Shown piece by piece: positions 36,656-42,366 of a stretch of 64,000 nucleotides of DNA. Under the pieces are notes generated by a model. That model searched no databases. It was not told where the DNA came from and saw nothing but the letters and a program-made list of their open reading frames with translations. The DNA lies in the NCBI RefSeq assembly GCF_900102425.1, contig NZ_FNBT01000008.1:124001-188000 (forward strand), given 5' to 3'. A program made the translations under genes and the position numbers. Position 1 is the stretch's first letter. Each line of letters opens with the position of its first letter. The DNA is from Blastococcus aurantiacus. Its GTDB lineage: Bacteria; Actinomycetota; Actinomycetes; Mycobacteriales; Geodermatophilaceae.

Positions 36656-36760
36656 GGGGCGCTCCTAGCCTTGTGGGACAGGACCCGGGTCCGGGTCCTG
36701 CTGTCGTGCCGACCTGAGCCGACACGACGACGGACCCCGGGGTGCGGGGTCCGTCGGGAG

Positions 36761-36834
36761 TAGCGGTGACCGGACTTGAACCGGTGACACAGCGATTATG
36801 AGCCGCTTGCTCTACCAGGCTGAGCTACACCGCC
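36761..36834 (-). tRNA. tRNA-Met (CAT anticodon, elongator type)
   Basis: A 74-nt cloverleaf on the minus strand: acceptor GGCGGTG/CACCGCT (first pair G-U), anticodon loop CTCATAA, T-loop TTCAAGT, discriminator A. The paired first position and lack of the three G-C pairs of initiators argue against fMet; a tRNA-Ile with modified CAT cannot be fully excluded. Confidence 0.9.
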
Positions 36835-36892
36835 GGGACGACCTGCGGCCCGGTCTCGCGACTGGACCGGTAGGTCAGCTTACTAGTTCCAG

Positions 36893-36965
36893 AGCCCCTT
36901 TACGGAATCGAACCGTAGACCTTCTCCTTACCATGGAGACGCTCTGCCGACTGAGCTAAAGGGGC
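36893..36965 (-). tRNA. tRNA-Thr (GGT anticodon)
   Basis: A 73-nt cloverleaf on the minus strand: acceptor GCCCCTT/AAGGGGC, D-stem GCTC/GAGC, anticodon stem TCTCC/GGAGA with loop ATGGTAA, T-stem TACGG/CCGTA. A minus-strand -10-like TAGAGT lies at 36987-36992, just upstream. The order tRNA-Thr, tRNA-Met, rpmG, hadA, hadB matches mycobacteria. Confidence 0.95.
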
Positions 36966-37045: not shown

Positions 37046-39610
37046 TCAGCCGCGCACGAAGAGCCGCCGGTGGGCCGCGCCCGGGGACGCCGTGCGCACG
37101 CCGGTGCGGGCCAGCAGCCAGTTCTCCAGCCGGTCGTCGGGCAGCGGCCGGCTGACCAGGAAGCCCTGCAGCTTGTCGCAGCCCATCTCGGCCAGCAGGT
37201 TGCGGGTCATCTCGTCCTCGACGCCCTCGGCCACCACGCGCAGGCCCAGGTTGTGCGCCAGCTCGATGATCGAGCGGGCGATGAAGGACTCGCCCTGGCT
37301 GGTGGACATGCCCAGGACGAAGGACTTGTCGATCTTGACCTCGTCGATGGGCAGCTGGCGCAGCTGGGACAGCGACGAGTAGCCGGTGCCGAAGTCGTCC
37401 ATCGACAGCCGCAGGCCCAGGTCGTGCAGGTCGGCGAGCACGGTGCTGTCGCGGACGGAGTCGTCGACCACGCTGCCCTCGGTGAGCTCCAGGGTGAGCA
37501 GCTCGCCGGGCACGCCGTGCCGCTGCAGCGCGCTGCGCACGCGGGAGAGTAGGTCGGGCTCGGTGAGGCAGTGCACGGAGAGGTTGACCGCGACCGAGAG
37601 CGCGATGTCCTGGTCCAGCCAGCGGCGGCACCGGGCCAGCGCGAGGTCGAGCACGTGGTCGGTGACGGCGCCGATGCGGCCGATCTGCTCGGCCAGGTGG
37701 ATGAAGTCGTCCGGCGGGATCGACCCGTACCGCGGGTGAGCCCAGCGCACGAGCGTCTCGACGGAGACGATGTCGGAGGTCTGGGCGTCGATGATCGGCT
37801 GGAAGACCACGCTGATCTGACCGTCCGCCATGGCCTGCTCGATCTCGGTGCCCAGCTGGAGCCGGCGGAGGCTCTGCTGATCCAGGACGGGGTGGTAGCT
37901 GGCCACCCCGCCGGAGTCGGCCGCCGCGAGCAGGGCGACGTCGGCCCGCTGCATCAGCATCCCCGAGTCGGTGCCGTGCACCGGCGCCGCGGCGACGCCG
38001 ATCGTGAGCGTGACCTCCAGGTCCAGGCCGGCCACTCGGACGCGGGTGGCGGCCGCCTCGCGGAGGCGGCGCGCGGCGCGCTCTGTGGCGGCCAGGGACA
38101 GCCCGGGGAGCAGCACGGCGAACCGCTCGCTCTCCATCCGGGCCAGCAGCGCCTGCGGCGGGGCGTGCTCGCGCAGCAGACCGGCGGTCACGAGGAGCAG
38201 CTCGTCGCTGGCGGCGTGGCCGAGCGTGTCGGTGACCTCGGTGTAGTTGCCCACCGCCGCGAAGATGAGCCCCGCGCGACCGGCGGCCGGGTCGGCCGAA
38301 CCGACCGGTTCGACCGCGAGCAGGGCATCGATCTCGACGGCCAGCCGCTGGCGGTTGGGCAGCCCGGTGAGCCGGTCGTGGTCGGCGTCGTAGCGGATCT
38401 GGGTGAGCAGCTGCTGGTGCCTGATGGCGGCATTGACGTGGGTGAGCATCGAGGCGAATGCGCCGCGGTCGGCCTCGGCGAACGAGACGACGTCGCTGCG
38501 CCGGTCGCAGACCTCCAGGTAGCCGGCCTCACCGGCCGCCGTCGCCAGCGGGGCGGCGAGCAGTTCGCTGACGCCGCGCCGGGCAAGGCCGGCAACCTCC
38601 CGCTCGTCGGCTCGGCCCGCCGACACCAGGATCGGCCCGTCGGCGACCGCGGCGGCGCGACGGAAGATGTCGTCGGGGTCCCCCGGTCCGTCGTACCAGG
38701 CCCGGCCGTCCTCGGCGGCCACCACCAGGCGGGGCGGCTCGTCGAGGTAGGGAGGGAGCCACATCGCCACCCGCTCGGCGTTCAGCAGCTCGCGCAGCGA
38801 CTCGACGATCTGCATCGTGCCCGCGTCGTCGGCGGCCACCTGCTCCACCCGCCGGGCGAAGCCGTAGACGCGCTCGAGCGACTGGCCCTCCCGGGTCACC
38901 GCCGCGAACCGCCGGTACACCAGCACCAACGCCACGGTGAGCGGCGTGATCAGCAGCCAGGACCAGACGGTGGCGTGGACCAGCAGCAGGATGGACAGGC
39001 CGACCAGCACCGCGACGGGTCCGATCACCGCGACGGGCAGGAACAGGCTCGCCCACAGCTCCCGGCCGGGGTACCCCTGGCTGAGCGTGATGGCGAGGGC
39101 GATGAGGCTGGCACCCACCATGCTCGCGATCAGGACGGCCACCAGGTAGGAGATCCAGGTCTCCGGCGAGCCGATGTCGCCGACCGGGAGCCAGCGGAGC
39201 AGCGCCACGGCGACCGCGACCTCGACGACCGCGGCGGCCATGTTGAAGACGATCTTCGGGTGCGAGAACCCCTTGGCCAGGAGCACCGCCCCCACGGCAG
39301 CCGCCCGTGCCGCGGCGGCCCAGAACCCACCCACCTCCACGAGCGCGATGACGAAGGCGAGTTCGCTGGCCGAGCAGGAGAAGCTCTGCCGCCGGAATTC
39401 GAACTCCAGGCTGAAGGACTCGCCGGCGACGAAGGCCAGTACGGCGACCAGCAGGATCGGCACGCTCACCGTGAACGGTCCGCCGGAGAGCAGCAGGACC
39501 GCGACCGGCACGGCTAGCAGGAGCCCGAGGGCGGCGATGGCCCAGGGACTGCTCAGCGGGCGCTCGCGCCGCGCGGGTCGGACGTCGTGCTCGGCCACTC
39601 GTACCTGCAT
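37046..39610 (-). CDS. Membrane GGDEF-EAL protein, probable c-di-GMP phosphodiesterase
   Basis: An 854-residue protein: about eight hydrophobic helices in residues 20-230, a GAF-like region (about 245-400), a GGDEF domain (about 410-560) and an EAL domain (about 590-840). The cyclase site reads ESERF at 493-497 instead of GGDEF, so cyclase activity is unlikely. EAL residues look complete: ETLVRWAH with Glu618, ELTEG, DDFGTG with Asp738-Asp739, KIDKSF, and Glu795 in AEGVED. Hence a phosphodiesterase is predicted. The ATG lacks a good RBS; a GTG four codons in (39596-39598) follows an AGG and may be used. It lies 164 nt below the AVRWG peptide gene, with a hairpin between. Confidence 0.88.
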   Translation of the reverse strand: MQVRVAEHDVRPARRERPLSSPWAIAALGLLLAVPVAVLLLSGGPFTVSVPILLVAVLAFVAGESFSLEFEFRRQSFSCSASELAFVIALVEVGGFWAAAARAAAVGAVLLAKGFSHPKIVFNMAAAVVEVAVAVALLRWLPVGDIGSPETWISYLVAVLIASMVGASLIALAITLSQGYPGRELWASLFLPVAVIGPVAVLVGLSILLLVHATVWSWLLITPLTVALVLVYRRFAAVTREGQSLERVYGFARRVEQVAADDAGTMQIVESLRELLNAERVAMWLPPYLDEPPRLVVAAEDGRAWYDGPGDPDDIFRRAAAVADGPILVSAGRADEREVAGLARRGVSELLAAPLATAAGEAGYLEVCDRRSDVVSFAEADRGAFASMLTHVNAAIRHQQLLTQIRYDADHDRLTGLPNRQRLAVEIDALLAVEPVGSADPAAGRAGLIFAAVGNYTEVTDTLGHAASDELLLVTAGLLREHAPPQALLARMESERFAVLLPGLSLAATERAARRLREAAATRVRVAGLDLEVTLTIGVAAAPVHGTDSGMLMQRADVALLAAADSGGVASYHPVLDQQSLRRLQLGTEIEQAMADGQISVVFQPIIDAQTSDIVSVETLVRWAHPRYGSIPPDDFIHLAEQIGRIGAVTDHVLDLALARCRRWLDQDIALSVAVNLSVHCLTEPDLLSRVRSALQRHGVPGELLTLELTEGSVVDDSVRDSTVLADLHDLGLRLSMDDFGTGYSSLSQLRQLPIDEVKIDKSFVLGMSTSQGESFIARSIIELAHNLGLRVVAEGVEDEMTRNLLAEMGCDKLQGFLVSRPLPDDRLENWLLARTGVRTASPGAAHRRLFVRG

Positions 39611-39700
39611 TCACGGGGGAAGAAGAGCGGGCGAAGGCTAACAGCGGAGACCCCGCTCACCAGCCTCTTCCGCCCCCAAAGGGTCAGTGCCGTCCCGGAA

Positions 39701-39739
39701 CGCGAAACAGCCGACCGGAAACCGGTCGGCTGTCTCGCG
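39701..39739 (-). terminator. Hairpin after the AVRWG peptide gene
   Basis: An 18-bp stem with one mismatch (39701-39718 with 39722-39739) and an AAA loop, 35 nt after the micro-ORF stop and 90 nt before the GGDEF-EAL start. It can act as terminator of the peptide gene or as an attenuator of the gene below. Confidence 0.75.
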
Positions 39740-39774
39740 TGTGTCGTGGTCGGGGCCGGGGGCCCCGGGGGTGC

Positions 39775-39867
39775 TCAGCCCCAGCGGACGGCGGTGCGTC
39801 CCCAGCGGACGGCGCGTCCCCAGCGGACGGCGCGCTCTGCTGCTGCGTTCGAAACCTTGGCGTTCAT
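39775..39867 (-). CDS. 30-residue Arg/Trp-rich peptide with three AVRWG repeats
   Basis: Not recognised as any known family. The ATG at 39865-39867 is preceded by a perfect AGGAGG four bases upstream. The first 11 residues (MNAKVSNAAAE) are followed by AVRWG at 13-17, 19-23 and 26-30, separated by Arg or Arg-Thr; the last residue is the third Gly. There are six Arg, one Lys, one Glu and three Trp, so the net charge is about +6. Two repeats are identical at DNA level over 18 bp (39796-39831). It has its own hairpin terminator and a 208-nt upstream gap with an inverted repeat. No modification or export gene is adjacent. Options: a RiPP-like precursor, a cationic membrane-active peptide, or a leader peptide attenuating the GGDEF-EAL gene. 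Confidence 0.65.
   Translation of the reverse strand: MNAKVSNAAAERAVRWGRAVRWGRTAVRWG
39778..39831 (-). repeat. Tandem 18-bp repeat inside the micro-ORF
   Basis: On the minus strand, GCCGTCCGCTGGGGACGC occurs at 39814-39831 and 39796-39813 without a mismatch, and its first 14 bases recur at 39779-39792 after a 3-bp insertion. Each unit also holds GTCC/GGAC and could form a small RNA hairpin. Confidence 0.9.
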
Positions 39868-39996
39868 GGTGCCTCCTAGGACATGACTGACTGCGGGTGT
39901 GCGGCAGGCACTCACGCGCGGGGGCAGAGCGTCGTTCGGTACGGACCGCACTGGGGACATTGCTGCCCGTCACCCTTACGAGGCAAGCATCGATGA

Positions 39997-40028
39997 TCAC
40001 GACGGAGTGACGATCTTGAGTGTCGTGA
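39997..40028. promoter_or_regulatory. Inverted repeat upstream of the AVRWG peptide gene
   Basis: TCACGAC (39997-40003) and GTCGTGA (40022-40028) form a perfect 7-bp inverted repeat with an 18-bp spacer, about 130 bp upstream of the micro-ORF start. A regulator site is inferred; no convincing -10/-35 was identified between it and the gene. Confidence 0.35.
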
Positions 40029-40075: not shown

Positions 40076-42082
40076 TCAGCCCGTTTCGGCCTCCGCGAGC
40101 TCCCTCAGTTCCTCCATCACCCCGACGCCGGCCTCGACGACGTCCCGGAGCCGATCGCCACCCGGCATCACGTCCGTGGCCAGCCCCACCCAGTCCACCG
40201 GCGGTGACTCCGGCGCGATGGGCGCGCCCAGCAGTGCCGCGACGTGCTGGTACGCCGCAGCCGGGCCCGGGGCGTCGGAGGACATCGGGAAATGCAGCCC
40301 CTCGTCCTCGGAGCCGTCCCACGTCCCGTCCGCGTCGGCCACGACGGACAGCGCGGAGACGAGCCCGGCCAGCTCGTCCCCGCGACGGGGGATGAACGAG
40401 AGCACCTCCGCCAGCACCGTGGTGGTGCGGTCGCGTCGGACGGCCTCCTCCTGGGCAGCGAACTCGTGGAGGGCGTGGTCCAGGCGTTGCCCGTACTCGC
40501 GGACAGCGAGGTAGCCGGCCTGCACCGCCGGCGCCGCGGACGCCTGGTCCAGCGCCCGGTCGAGCACGTCGGCGGCGGCCGGGTCGGCACTCAGGTACCC
40601 GAGCCCCCGCAGCACCAGCCGGTCCTCCTCCCCCGCGCCCGCGGCGGTCCGCACCAACGGCTCGGCCACCACCTCCGGCCGGGCGGCGACGGCCTCGGCG
40701 AGGGCCGGGGCGATCGAGGCCGCCGTGACCCGGTCGACGGTCCAGCCGGCCGGGTCGCCGTCGTCCCCGAGCCCGATCGCCAGGGCGCGCAGCCCGGAGC
40801 GCATGACGACGTCGCCCGGCTCCACCGTGGCCCGTTCCACCGCCGCGGCGAACGCCGCTCCGCCGTCGTCCCACGGGCGCGCGAGCAGATGCGTCCAGGT
40901 CGGTTCCGCCCGGAGCAGCTCGGCGGCCTGTGGCCCCGCGTCCGCCCGGGCGAGACGGCCGAGGACCTCCTCCAACGGGTCGCCCGGGAGCGCCGGGGAC
41001 GGCCCGAGACGGTCGAGGATCCGCTCCCCGCCGAGGGCGCGCTCCCGCGCGACGATCTGCCGTCCCCACTCCCGGACCGTGGCCGGCGGTGGCCCCGGGT
41101 GTCCGGAGCGCCGCGCGGCGGCGAGCACGGCACCCATGCCCAGTGCCACGTGGTCGGCGTCCAGCGTGCGGACGTCCTCGGGGTCGACGTGCCGCACGTC
41201 GCGCGCCCGTGCCACCCCGCCCGCCGCACCGGTCGGCACCGGGGCGCCCAGGACGGCCGCCAGGACGCCCGCCAGGGCACTGCCCGCCGACAGCGAGCCG
41301 TCCCCCAGCAGCCCCAGCACCTCCTGCACCCCCGCGGCGCCCAGCCCGGTGAGCACCGTCGCGGCGACCGCCCCGTTCCCCGCCCAGGGCAGCAGGTCGC
41401 GGGCCGCCTGCTCGCGGCCGCCGAGGTCGTCGGCGTCGAGGAAGTCGGCCACGAAGTCCGCGCCGCGCCGCTCGAGGGCGGACGCGTGCCAGCCGGGCAG
41501 CAGGTCCTCGAGGTGCCGGACGGCATGCGCCCCGTCGCCGCTCCCCGCGGCGGCACCGCACGCGGCCAGCACGGCCGCGGTCGCCGCTGCGTCGACCTCG
41601 ACCTCGACCAGCATCGTGGCGCGCAGCCGCCCCCGGGCCGCCTCCGCGGCGACGAGCTCGTCGACGACCGCCGCGGCTCCCGGGCCGGGCAGGCCGGTGC
41701 CGGGATCCGCTCCGGCGCCCATGCGCCGCACGGCCACGTCGAAGTCCTCCGCCTGCGCCCGCTGCAGCTGTGCCAGTCGCTGCCGCACGTCGACGAGCAC
41801 CTCCTCGTGGCGCCGCACCCGCGCCGCCGCGCGCACCAGCGCGCCGGCGGCCTCCCGTGCCAGACGGCCGACCCTCGCCAGCTGCGCATCGGCGGCGGCC
41901 GCGTCGTCGCCGGCCCATCCGCACGCCGCCGCGGGGGCGCCGTCCAGCTGCCCGGCGAGGTCGCCGAGGACGGCGGCGGCCGCGTCCAGCCGCGTCGTCA
42001 GGTCCGCCAGCGCAGCCGGGTCCCCCGGCGGTGGCTCGAGTCGCGCGGGGTCAGGCAGCGGCCAGCCCGTCGGTCCGGTCAC
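40076..42082 (-). CDS. Large helical protein with WXG100-like N-terminus (type VII secretion substrate-like)
   Basis: A 668-residue Ala-rich protein with no signal peptide or membrane helix. The GTG at 42080-42082 overlaps the preceding gene (GTGA). The first ~90 residues read as two helices around GWAGDDAAAADAQ, a W-x-G turn like WXG100 proteins; the remainder is mostly predicted helix, with a GSEDEGLHFPMSSD segment near the C-terminus. It resembles large uncharacterised actinobacterial proteins that follow EspC/WXG100-like genes. No ESX secretion machinery lies in this window. Function unknown. Confidence 0.6.
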   Translation of the reverse strand: MTGPTGWPLPDPARLEPPPGDPAALADLTTRLDAAAAVLGDLAGQLDGAPAAACGWAGDDAAAADAQLARVGRLAREAAGALVRAAARVRRHEEVLVDVRQRLAQLQRAQAEDFDVAVRRMGAGADPGTGLPGPGAAAVVDELVAAEAARGRLRATMLVEVEVDAAATAAVLAACGAAAGSGDGAHAVRHLEDLLPGWHASALERRGADFVADFLDADDLGGREQAARDLLPWAGNGAVAATVLTGLGAAGVQEVLGLLGDGSLSAGSALAGVLAAVLGAPVPTGAAGGVARARDVRHVDPEDVRTLDADHVALGMGAVLAAARRSGHPGPPPATVREWGRQIVARERALGGERILDRLGPSPALPGDPLEEVLGRLARADAGPQAAELLRAEPTWTHLLARPWDDGGAAFAAAVERATVEPGDVVMRSGLRALAIGLGDDGDPAGWTVDRVTAASIAPALAEAVAARPEVVAEPLVRTAAGAGEEDRLVLRGLGYLSADPAAADVLDRALDQASAAPAVQAGYLAVREYGQRLDHALHEFAAQEEAVRRDRTTTVLAEVLSFIPRRGDELAGLVSALSVVADADGTWDGSEDEGLHFPMSSDAPGPAAAYQHVAALLGAPIAPESPPVDWVGLATDVMPGGDRLRDVVEAGVGVMEELRELAEAETG

Positions 42083-42366
42083 CGGCCCGGCCCGTCGTGC
42101 GGAACGGGGAGCAGCAGACCGGCGTCGAGCCGCACCCACGCGTCGGCGATGCCGACGACGGTGGAGCCGAGCCAGCGGAGCTCACCCGCCAGTGCGGTGG
42201 CCAGCAACCGGTGGCGGTCCAGGAGCAGCTCGACCGGCGTCCGCAGCGGGCCGTCGACGTCCCCGTCGTCGACGAGGCGGCCGCGGACGTCGTCGACGGT
42301 CCCGGCCCGTCCGGTCAGCGACCGACCCAGCGCCCGGACCTGCTCGGCAGGCATCTCGATGCTCAC
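42079..42366 (-). CDS. Small EspC/WXG100-like protein
   Basis: A 95-residue protein, the usual size of ESX substrates and partners. The start MPAEQVRALGRSLTGRAG after VSIE resembles EspC-family proteins, which open with a short beta-like segment then helix. Two helices with a central RWLGSTVVG turn follow. The GTG at 42364-42366 is chosen; an ATG four codons later is possible and neither has a strong RBS. Overlaps the large partner gene by 4 nt, which suggests the two act together. Confidence 0.55.
   Translation of the reverse strand: MSIEMPAEQVRALGRSLTGRAGTVDDVRGRLVDDGDVDGPLRTPVELLLDRHRLLATALAGELRWLGSTVVGIADAWVRLDAGLLLPVPHDGPGR

Follow-up and report, generated by a model that had tools for sequence, protein, structure and literature searches.

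The window, by which we mean the whole stretch of 64,000 nucleotides that was analyzed, carries on its minus strand a micro-gene (39775 to 39867, with the ATG at 39867 and the stop at 39775) that encodes a peptide of 30 residues, MNAKVSNAAAERAVRWGRAVRWGRTAVRWG. An 11-residue head (39835 to 39867), which varies in sequence and length among relatives, is followed in the ORF translation by three repeat copies on the same strand: RAVRWG (39817 to 39834), a second RAVRWG with the same DNA as the first (39799 to 39816), and R(T)AVRWG, which has one additional Thr (39778 to 39798). The initial annotation of this locus had described a short head followed by repeated cores, two repeats identical in DNA, and a net charge of about +6. 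All of this was recovered: AVRWG occurs three times with R or RT as spacers, copies 1 and 2 are the identical pair, and 7 basic residues minus 1 acidic residue give a net charge of +6. A Shine-Dalgarno sequence, AGGAGG, lies at 39872 to 39877 (minus strand), and SD-like sequences are also found in relatives. Upstream of the start codon, an alignment of 73 genomes delimits a conserved 5′ region of ~150 nt (39868 to 40017, minus strand), a putative promoter and/or leader. Its family-wide conserved blocks are GCGGTCCGTA ... GCTCTGCCCCCGCG ... GCTGCCGC. No Rfam family matched this region, and a c-di-GMP or other riboswitch was rejected as a candidate for that reason. On the 3′ side, a 19-pair hairpin (~39700 to 39740, minus strand) begins 34 nt past the stop codon. 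The strong hairpin reported earlier is thus present, but it is at most a possible terminator, as it has no long T run and a consensus terminator scan made no call.

Read 5′ to 3′ on the minus strand, the locus comprises the gene for a 687-aa protein (40076 to 42139), the micro-gene, the hairpin, the gene for an 854-aa protein with GAF, GGDEF, and EAL domains (37046 to 39610), and the genes for tRNA-Thr (36892 to 36965) and tRNA-Met (36760 to 36834), which serve as synteny markers of the orthologous locus. Because 164 nt and the strong hairpin intervene between the micro-gene and the 854-aa gene, the two may be separate transcripts. Neither the window peptide nor the 687-aa protein upstream of it matched a Pfam or NCBIfam family. 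The flanking products are thus a GGDEF-EAL sensor and a family-less protein, which bears out the earlier remark that no maturation enzyme is adjacent; the claim of an undescribed family stands as far as Pfam and NCBIfam go. The sensor partner immediately downstream was overlooked in the initial annotation. A homologue of the 687-aa protein was found 5′ of the micro-gene in 18 of the 52 loci searched in other genera and relatives.

We analyzed the partner protein with Pfam and with structure prediction. Pfam matches to EAL (2.8e-69), GGDEF (7.1e-25), and GAF (1.7e-5) were obtained, and by the first two of these domains the protein would be classed as a GGDEF-EAL c-di-GMP enzyme. AlphaFold modeling of residues 1 to 262 with a 99-sequence alignment gave a seven-helix domain in which helix 2 is followed by a beta hairpin, the L1 hairpin (pLDDT 89.9, pTM 0.84); a single-sequence model (pLDDT 50) was too poor and was set aside. 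In structure comparisons of the predicted sensor domain (residues ~19 to 220; 38951 to 39556, minus strand) with VIA-align, a method with which helical bundles often reach Z 13 to 14 without kinship, the best match was NikM (4m5b; Z 15.7, 187 aligned, 3.6 Å). Other ECF S-components followed at Z 9 to 14, and the first different fold was at 6.7. The gap in Z between ECF S-components and other folds favors an ECF S-component fold for the modeled domain, and the top Foldseek rows were also ECF S-components, with weak E-values (0.038). A profile search of solved-structure sequences returned nothing. The window membrane domain matched no Pfam family below 0.2, and among the 99 alignment members the lowest Pfam E-value listed was 0.00023 (EptA_B_N), with no convincing family; MASE9 (PF20972) did not match the window protein and matched 2 of the 99 members weakly (best E 0.0089). 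A NikM-like topology would put the hairpin and pocket outside and the C terminus inside, which agrees with the requirement of the GAF-GGDEF-EAL portion. The fused domain architecture argues for a sensor rather than an ECF transporter.

Conservation of the micro-gene and matching of its repeat copies

A micro-gene of this type was found directly 5′ of the orthologous sensor gene in all 101 same-family genomes in which the locus was read. These comprised 74 genomes identified by profile matches and locus reading (G009 included), 8 more, and a further 19, in which G067 and G089 were recognized by eye; the family search covered 112 genomes, of which 8 gave no match to the sensor at E 1e-20 and three that did match (G072, G073, and G095) lie outside the count. 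Within the genus, the sensor gene was present in 23 of 23 genomes. In 22 the region upstream of it was intact, and all 22 had a similarly built micro-gene there; the 23rd (G009) has a contig break at the locus and repeat-coding pieces on two contig ends. Conservation of the frame, RBS, and repeats in relatives, the lack of which the initial annotation would have held against a gene, was looked for and is present. Its view that the frame is more than chance is likewise upheld by the occurrence at 101 of 101 orthologous sites and by the substitution counts below. We conclude that the micro-gene at 39867 to 39775 (minus strand) is a real gene; it illustrates how a gene of 30 codons, so readily overlooked, can occur almost throughout a family.

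The micro-genes carry one to five copies of a W-centered hexapeptide across the same-family genomes. In the 74-genome set, the peptides have 18 to 42 aa and two to five pattern-fitting copies; the G065 micro-gene has one copy only. The repeat unit consists of R, usually G, a hypervariable residue, usually K/R (S in g11/g12, M in G108), W, and then mostly G/S/T/N/A, and 49 different cores were counted among 78 same-family genomes. No signal peptide was seen in the micro-gene peptides of the window's family. One genome, G036, has two sensor loci (L376 and L377), each with its own array, with cores TARWG and TAKWG; the first array ends in a deviating copy, SSRWS. Outside-family matches of the first peptide profiles were rejected as tandem DNA or chance-like, in frames of 33 to 484 codons, on inspection of 3 of 9 non-window matches (L087, L089, and L092) and 5 of 5 order-level matches.

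We then compared neighboring copies within the arrays. Among copies chosen by the pattern R..[KRS]W., which itself fixes three positions, the 74 genomes showed 258 synonymous nucleotide differences versus 2 non-synonymous codons, where an equal number of random substitutions, free of constraint, would be expected to give ~181 non-synonymous changes; these counts leave out window copy 3, G040 copy 1, and the 27 genomes added last, G036 and G101 among them. Because the search pattern fixes R, [KRS], and W, positions 3 and 6 give the cleaner figure: all 72 codon differences preserve the residue, and 0 changes stand against ~50 (49.6) expected and a minimum of 38 over 1000 simulations. On a tree of the 78 genomes, position 3 changes 34 times and position 6 changes 29 times. 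The copies therefore match within a genome while species diverge. The constancy of W (and R) is partly by construction, since W was part of nearly every peptide filter and both residues were part of the search pattern. Departures from matching comprise the extra Thr of window copy 3, an R-to-P change in G040 copy 1, three inserted residues in G081, one deviating copy each in G051 and G111, a degenerate first copy in G101, and one of the two arrays of G036. The initial annotation had also suggested a recent expansion of the array. This fits the window taken alone but not the family, in which 132 of 155 neighboring copy pairs already differ in DNA.

These counts bear on the idea that the repeats act as nucleic acid, whether as an sRNA, a protein-binding RNA, or DNA repeats, with the frame incidental. 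Such a role could account for the conserved 5′ region and the hairpin, but it is hard to reconcile with 258 synonymous versus 2 non-synonymous differences, with 72 versus 0 at positions 3 and 6, or with the five arrays that switch serine or arginine codon families and keep the residue. It is strongly disfavored, and we give it hardly any weight.

Related peptides and subtilase tails upstream of the same sensor

In other families of the order, peptides were sought 5′ of sensors ~30% identical to that of the window. A peptide was found at 20 of 20 loci read in Micromonosporaceae with Glycomyces (f3, 41 genomes with a match), at 5 of 5 loci in f82 (GSSWT, AIWG), at 2 of 2 in f75 (VVWL, two GAGWG), at 2 of 2 in f78 (leaderless, with five FVDGNTWT-type or four DGGSWTFA-type repeats), and at the single f77 locus (L261), where a leaderless peptide with two GALWG was recognized by eye alone. 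W-repeat tails took this position at 3 of 4 loci in f79, two of them confirmed subtilases. Nothing was recognized 5′ of the sensor in f74 (2 loci), in f80 (1 locus), or at one f79 locus, nor upstream of most paralogous sensors.

A search of named genomes covered 80 sensor loci, 77 of them usable (L260, L296, and L312 were dropped for short downstream sequence). At 63 of the 77, tRNA-Thr/tRNA-Met genes lie right after the sensor as in the window, and a repeat or W-core peptide lies upstream in 63 of these 63 syntenic loci (59 by filter and 4 by eye: L261, L297, L322, and L327). The other 14 loci, without the tRNAs, comprise 12 with no peptide by filter (L264, L275, L277, and L279 also judged by eye, the other 8 by filter only), L325, where the filter picked a spurious frame on a subtilase tail, and Glycomyces algeriensis (L335), which has repeats and no tRNA call. 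A W-repeat tail stands in place of a peptide at L264, L275, L279, and L325, and L278 offered just 23 nt of upstream sequence.

The Micromonosporaceae/Glycomyces peptides, and some others, have a hydrophobic, signal-like N terminus, as judged by a hydrophobicity count and by eye. Putatively secreted peptides with DYDWS, EFEWN, DIVWQ, or GSGEIS units precede the same sensor in other actinobacterial families. Micromonospora sp. 15K316 has six copies of DYSWG, and M. parastrephiae has three of DIVWQ plus one DIVWH; the Glycomyces peptides consist of GSGEIS repeats with W-less cores, and one other genome also uses W-less cores. At 56 Micromonosporaceae loci, a set that omits L322 and L327 (peptide present, missed by the filter) and in which the core was reassigned by eye at 10, the core is mostly [D/G/E]-hydrophobic-[E/D/V/I]-W-x, in 43 variants. 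G-x-[K/R]-W-[G/S/T] of the window's family and G-V-E-W-G of Micromonosporaceae share a grammar, with opposite charge before the W. A comparison by eye of 12 Micromonosporaceae peptides with at least two W cores found all copies matched in 8 (L271, L272, L280, L283, L298, L314, L329, and L330); since 4 of the 12 are unmatched (L293, L300, L301, and L324), copy matching is looser in this family. Seven related peptides had no NCBIfam match, six had sub-threshold Pfam matches to unrelated families only, and a plasmid search with one relative peptide gave no match.

The initial annotation had proposed a membrane-active peptide or the precursor of a ribosomally made modified peptide (RiPP). In the window, the head followed by repeated cores, the charge of +6, and the Arg/Trp alternation do have that appearance. 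The comparison with relatives does not support the proposal: the syntenic Micromonosporaceae peptides are mostly acidic in the core (EFEWN, DYDWS, DIVWQ), similar repeats also form subtilase tails, the constant partner is a sensor, and the locus is conserved beside tRNA-Thr/Met. Moreover, neither flanking protein belongs to a modification family in Pfam or NCBIfam, and the heads, which vary among relatives in both sequence and length, contain no conserved leader. We consider a modified or antimicrobial peptide quite improbable.

We extended the search to the phylum with a sensor-domain profile, which matched 55 of 296 sampled genomes at E 1e-15. At 19 of 29 phylum sensor loci, the gene directly upstream encodes a W-repeat-tail protein (16) or a repeat/W-core peptide (3: L340, from the window's order, L342, and L346, the last a 22-residue frame with an unchecked start codon). 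Nothing was recognized upstream at the other 10, three of which (L344, L351, and L360) are on short contig ends where the estimate of the sensor start may be off. One locus counted as negative, L365 (G369), has a short frame with three VQLHPS repeats before the sensor, possibly another type of ligand. At L342 (G173), a peptide with a signal-like N terminus and very many GASLT repeats without W precedes a sensor-GGDEF-EAL gene. Tail arrays are near perfect at L348, L354, and L364 and mixed at L347, L353, and L359. Pfam tests of W-repeat-tail proteins identified five as subtilases, and GASWT, GKSWT, and GTRWT are among the repeats of subtilase tails before the sensor.

A W-repeat probe matched 13 of 14 sensor-bearing genomes in 21 clusters, counting as one cluster each the two tandem W-repeat frames that precede one sensor on G112:C21 and on G197:C39. 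Fifteen of the 21 precede a same-strand sensor gene by ≤500 nt; among the other six, two also precede a sensor (L369 and L373), one is at a contig end (L372), and three are weak and non-tandem. The one genome without a probe match, G337, has a RARWL-type tail at its locus. Because the genomes were chosen for having the sensor, these counts show the position of the tails and not their frequency. The outputs of 14 scanned sensor proteins were GGDEF-EAL in 6, HisKA-HATPase in 7, and none in 1, and a tail or peptide lies upstream of 6 of the 7 sensor kinases (L346, L354, L367, L368, L369, and L373), in the last five as a W-repeat-tail protein directly before the kinase gene. Since the output module swaps, the constant pair is the repeat with the membrane domain, not the repeat with a c-di-GMP enzyme.

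The spread of the cores over different carriers also weighs against a leader of the attenuator or translation-arrest type, in which, as in SecM, translation of the micro-ORF would control expression of the sensor gene. The arrangement is suggestive of one: a short ORF lies directly 5′ of the sensor gene, the Micromonosporaceae ORF ends ~0 to 130 nt before the sensor with the W-x core often C-terminal, and in the window a strong hairpin separates the two genes. Core residues nevertheless vary widely between species and yet match within a genome in the window's family, and cores are also found in subtilase repeat tails and deep inside longer peptides. A conserved C-terminal arrest motif of the SecM type was not found, as the core varies at positions 2, 3, 4, and 6. 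We regard an arrest leader as improbable.

Co-change of core and sensor, and a candidate peptide-sensor system

To relate changes in the core to changes in the sensor, we used 78 genomes, namely 73 of the 74 (G009 was dropped for its contig break) and 5 with hand-entered cores. With GAF controlled for, core distance correlated with distance in the membrane domain (partial r 0.285, 0 of 2000 permutations); with the membrane domain controlled for, it did not correlate with GAF distance (0.032, p 0.23). This contrast is to be read with the caveat that the membrane domain evolves faster and may just be the better clock. A Micromonosporaceae replicate gave 0.151 (0 of 2000) for the membrane domain given GAF and 0.064 (p 0.028) for GAF given the membrane domain. 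On core-changing branches, an excess of membrane-domain over GAF change had p values of 0.0002, 0.0024, and 0.19 on the all-tree, the membrane-domain tree, and the GAF tree, respectively, and of 0.02, 0.02, and 0.87 on the same three trees in the replicate. With segments of the membrane domain set by hand from an assumed topology, the excess for the whole core fell on the outer third (p 0.002) and the middle third (0.015), but not on the inner (0.23); when position 6 was taken by itself, the middle and inner thirds showed it (0.022 and 0.032), with 0.27 for the outer. For the K/R position, none of the three trees gave a co-change effect. We also looked for coupling of the core with individual receptor residues and rejected it, as no receptor column was significant. 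We regard the co-change of core and membrane domain as suggestive only.

Taken together, these data suggest that the micro-gene probably supplies a ligand, or a dedicated partner, of the sensor, and that a species-specific peptide signal probably feeds into c-di-GMP. What the comparisons establish is that the micro-gene is coding and conserved, that its copies match in the window's family, that it adjoins the sensor gene, and that peptide format and output module are exchanged among relatives; the fold is a model prediction, and binding, export, proteolytic release, and an effect on c-di-GMP are inferred. In the more specific form that we favor, with fair though limited confidence, the product of the micro-gene is a precursor with several copies of a species-specific ligand for the downstream sensor, which would alter c-di-GMP. 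The ligand would be a short peptide built as [G/S/D]-x-x-W-[small/polar], and in the window, where A takes the first place, it would read AVRWG. The sensor would bind this peptide, probably from outside, through its seven-helix domain of predicted ECF S-component fold, and its state would pass through GAF to GGDEF-EAL. Within a precursor, the need of every copy to fit the one receptor would keep the copies matched, a mismatched copy being wasted or harmful, and species would differ because ligand and receptor drift together, the ligand changing only with its receptor. Relatives might make the ligand in the form of an exported peptide or attach it to a subtilase as a repeat tail, and in them the same sensor could drive a histidine kinase; the subtilase tails hint at release of the ligand by proteolysis in other branches.

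The weak point of this ligand reading is that the window-family peptides have no signal peptide though the modeled pocket is expected outside. That observation favors its main rival, in which the peptide is a subunit, plug, or co-folding factor dedicated to the sensor and never diffusible, and in which the matched repeats would occupy like positions on an oligomer of the sensor. Such a partner would also fit the strict adjacency and the conserved synteny, and a basic, W-rich peptide might lie at the face of the membrane. On the other hand, the corresponding element of relatives follows a signal-like N terminus or is part of a subtilase, and the copy number runs from 1 to 5 in the window's family and up to many elsewhere. 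We consider a non-diffusible partner unlikely, if less so than the other alternatives.

We return to the peptide as a ligand. Because similar repeat peptides are found together with this kind of sensor in relatives across the actinobacteria, the locus would belong to an undescribed peptide-signal system. The widest version of this proposal, for which we see about even chances, is a phylum-wide set of Actinomycetota signals, for cell-cell communication or self-sensing, in which GxxW[S/T/G]-type repeats made as micro-genes, exported precursors, or subtilase tails act species-specifically on a receptor of ECF S-component fold and thereby on c-di-GMP turnover or a histidine kinase. The micro-gene peptide family and its pairing with the sensor are undescribed in that they belong to no curated family and that a full-text literature search, with most subscription papers and bioRxiv outside its coverage, found no description of the pairing. 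Actinobacteria include most antibiotic producers, and to our knowledge peptide signaling has hardly been described in them. Because the pair is kept at one locus in the family and recurs across the phylum, ligand, receptor, and output become predictable together, and the predictions can be checked with cheap synthetic peptides. Should the proposal hold, c-di-GMP enzymes and kinases of a class so far orphan would gain their first ligand, a fold known from vitamin transporters would have been put to new use as a peptide receptor, and the repeats would be a striking example of copies that evolve in step.

Among known systems, AgrD/AgrC and ComX/ComP combine a peptide pheromone with a polytopic membrane receptor. 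The window system would resemble them in that a small, variable peptide gene adjoins the gene of a polytopic N-terminal sensor with cytoplasmic output domains, the putative receptor, and in the hint that ligand and receptor change together. It differs in its repeated, matched cores, in its ECF S-component-like sensor fold, in its GGDEF-EAL output, and in that no additional gene for peptide processing was recognized beside the window micro-gene; nor does its peptide fall into a curated peptide family in Pfam or NCBIfam. The multi-copy precursor of the yeast pheromone alpha-factor offers another analogy, with several like units per precursor that are homogenized within a species, whereas the window-type precursor is bacterial, 18 to 42 aa long in the 74-genome set, and has no export signal in the family. 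As an N-terminal membrane sensor on a GGDEF-EAL protein, the partner is comparable to MASE-type sensors such as MASE9 (PF20972), from which it is set apart by the absence of a MASE9 match. Finally, in its predicted fold the sensor domain resembles the S-components of ECF transporters (NikM, RibU, FolT, and ThiT); unlike these, it is fused to GAF-GGDEF-EAL or to a histidine kinase.
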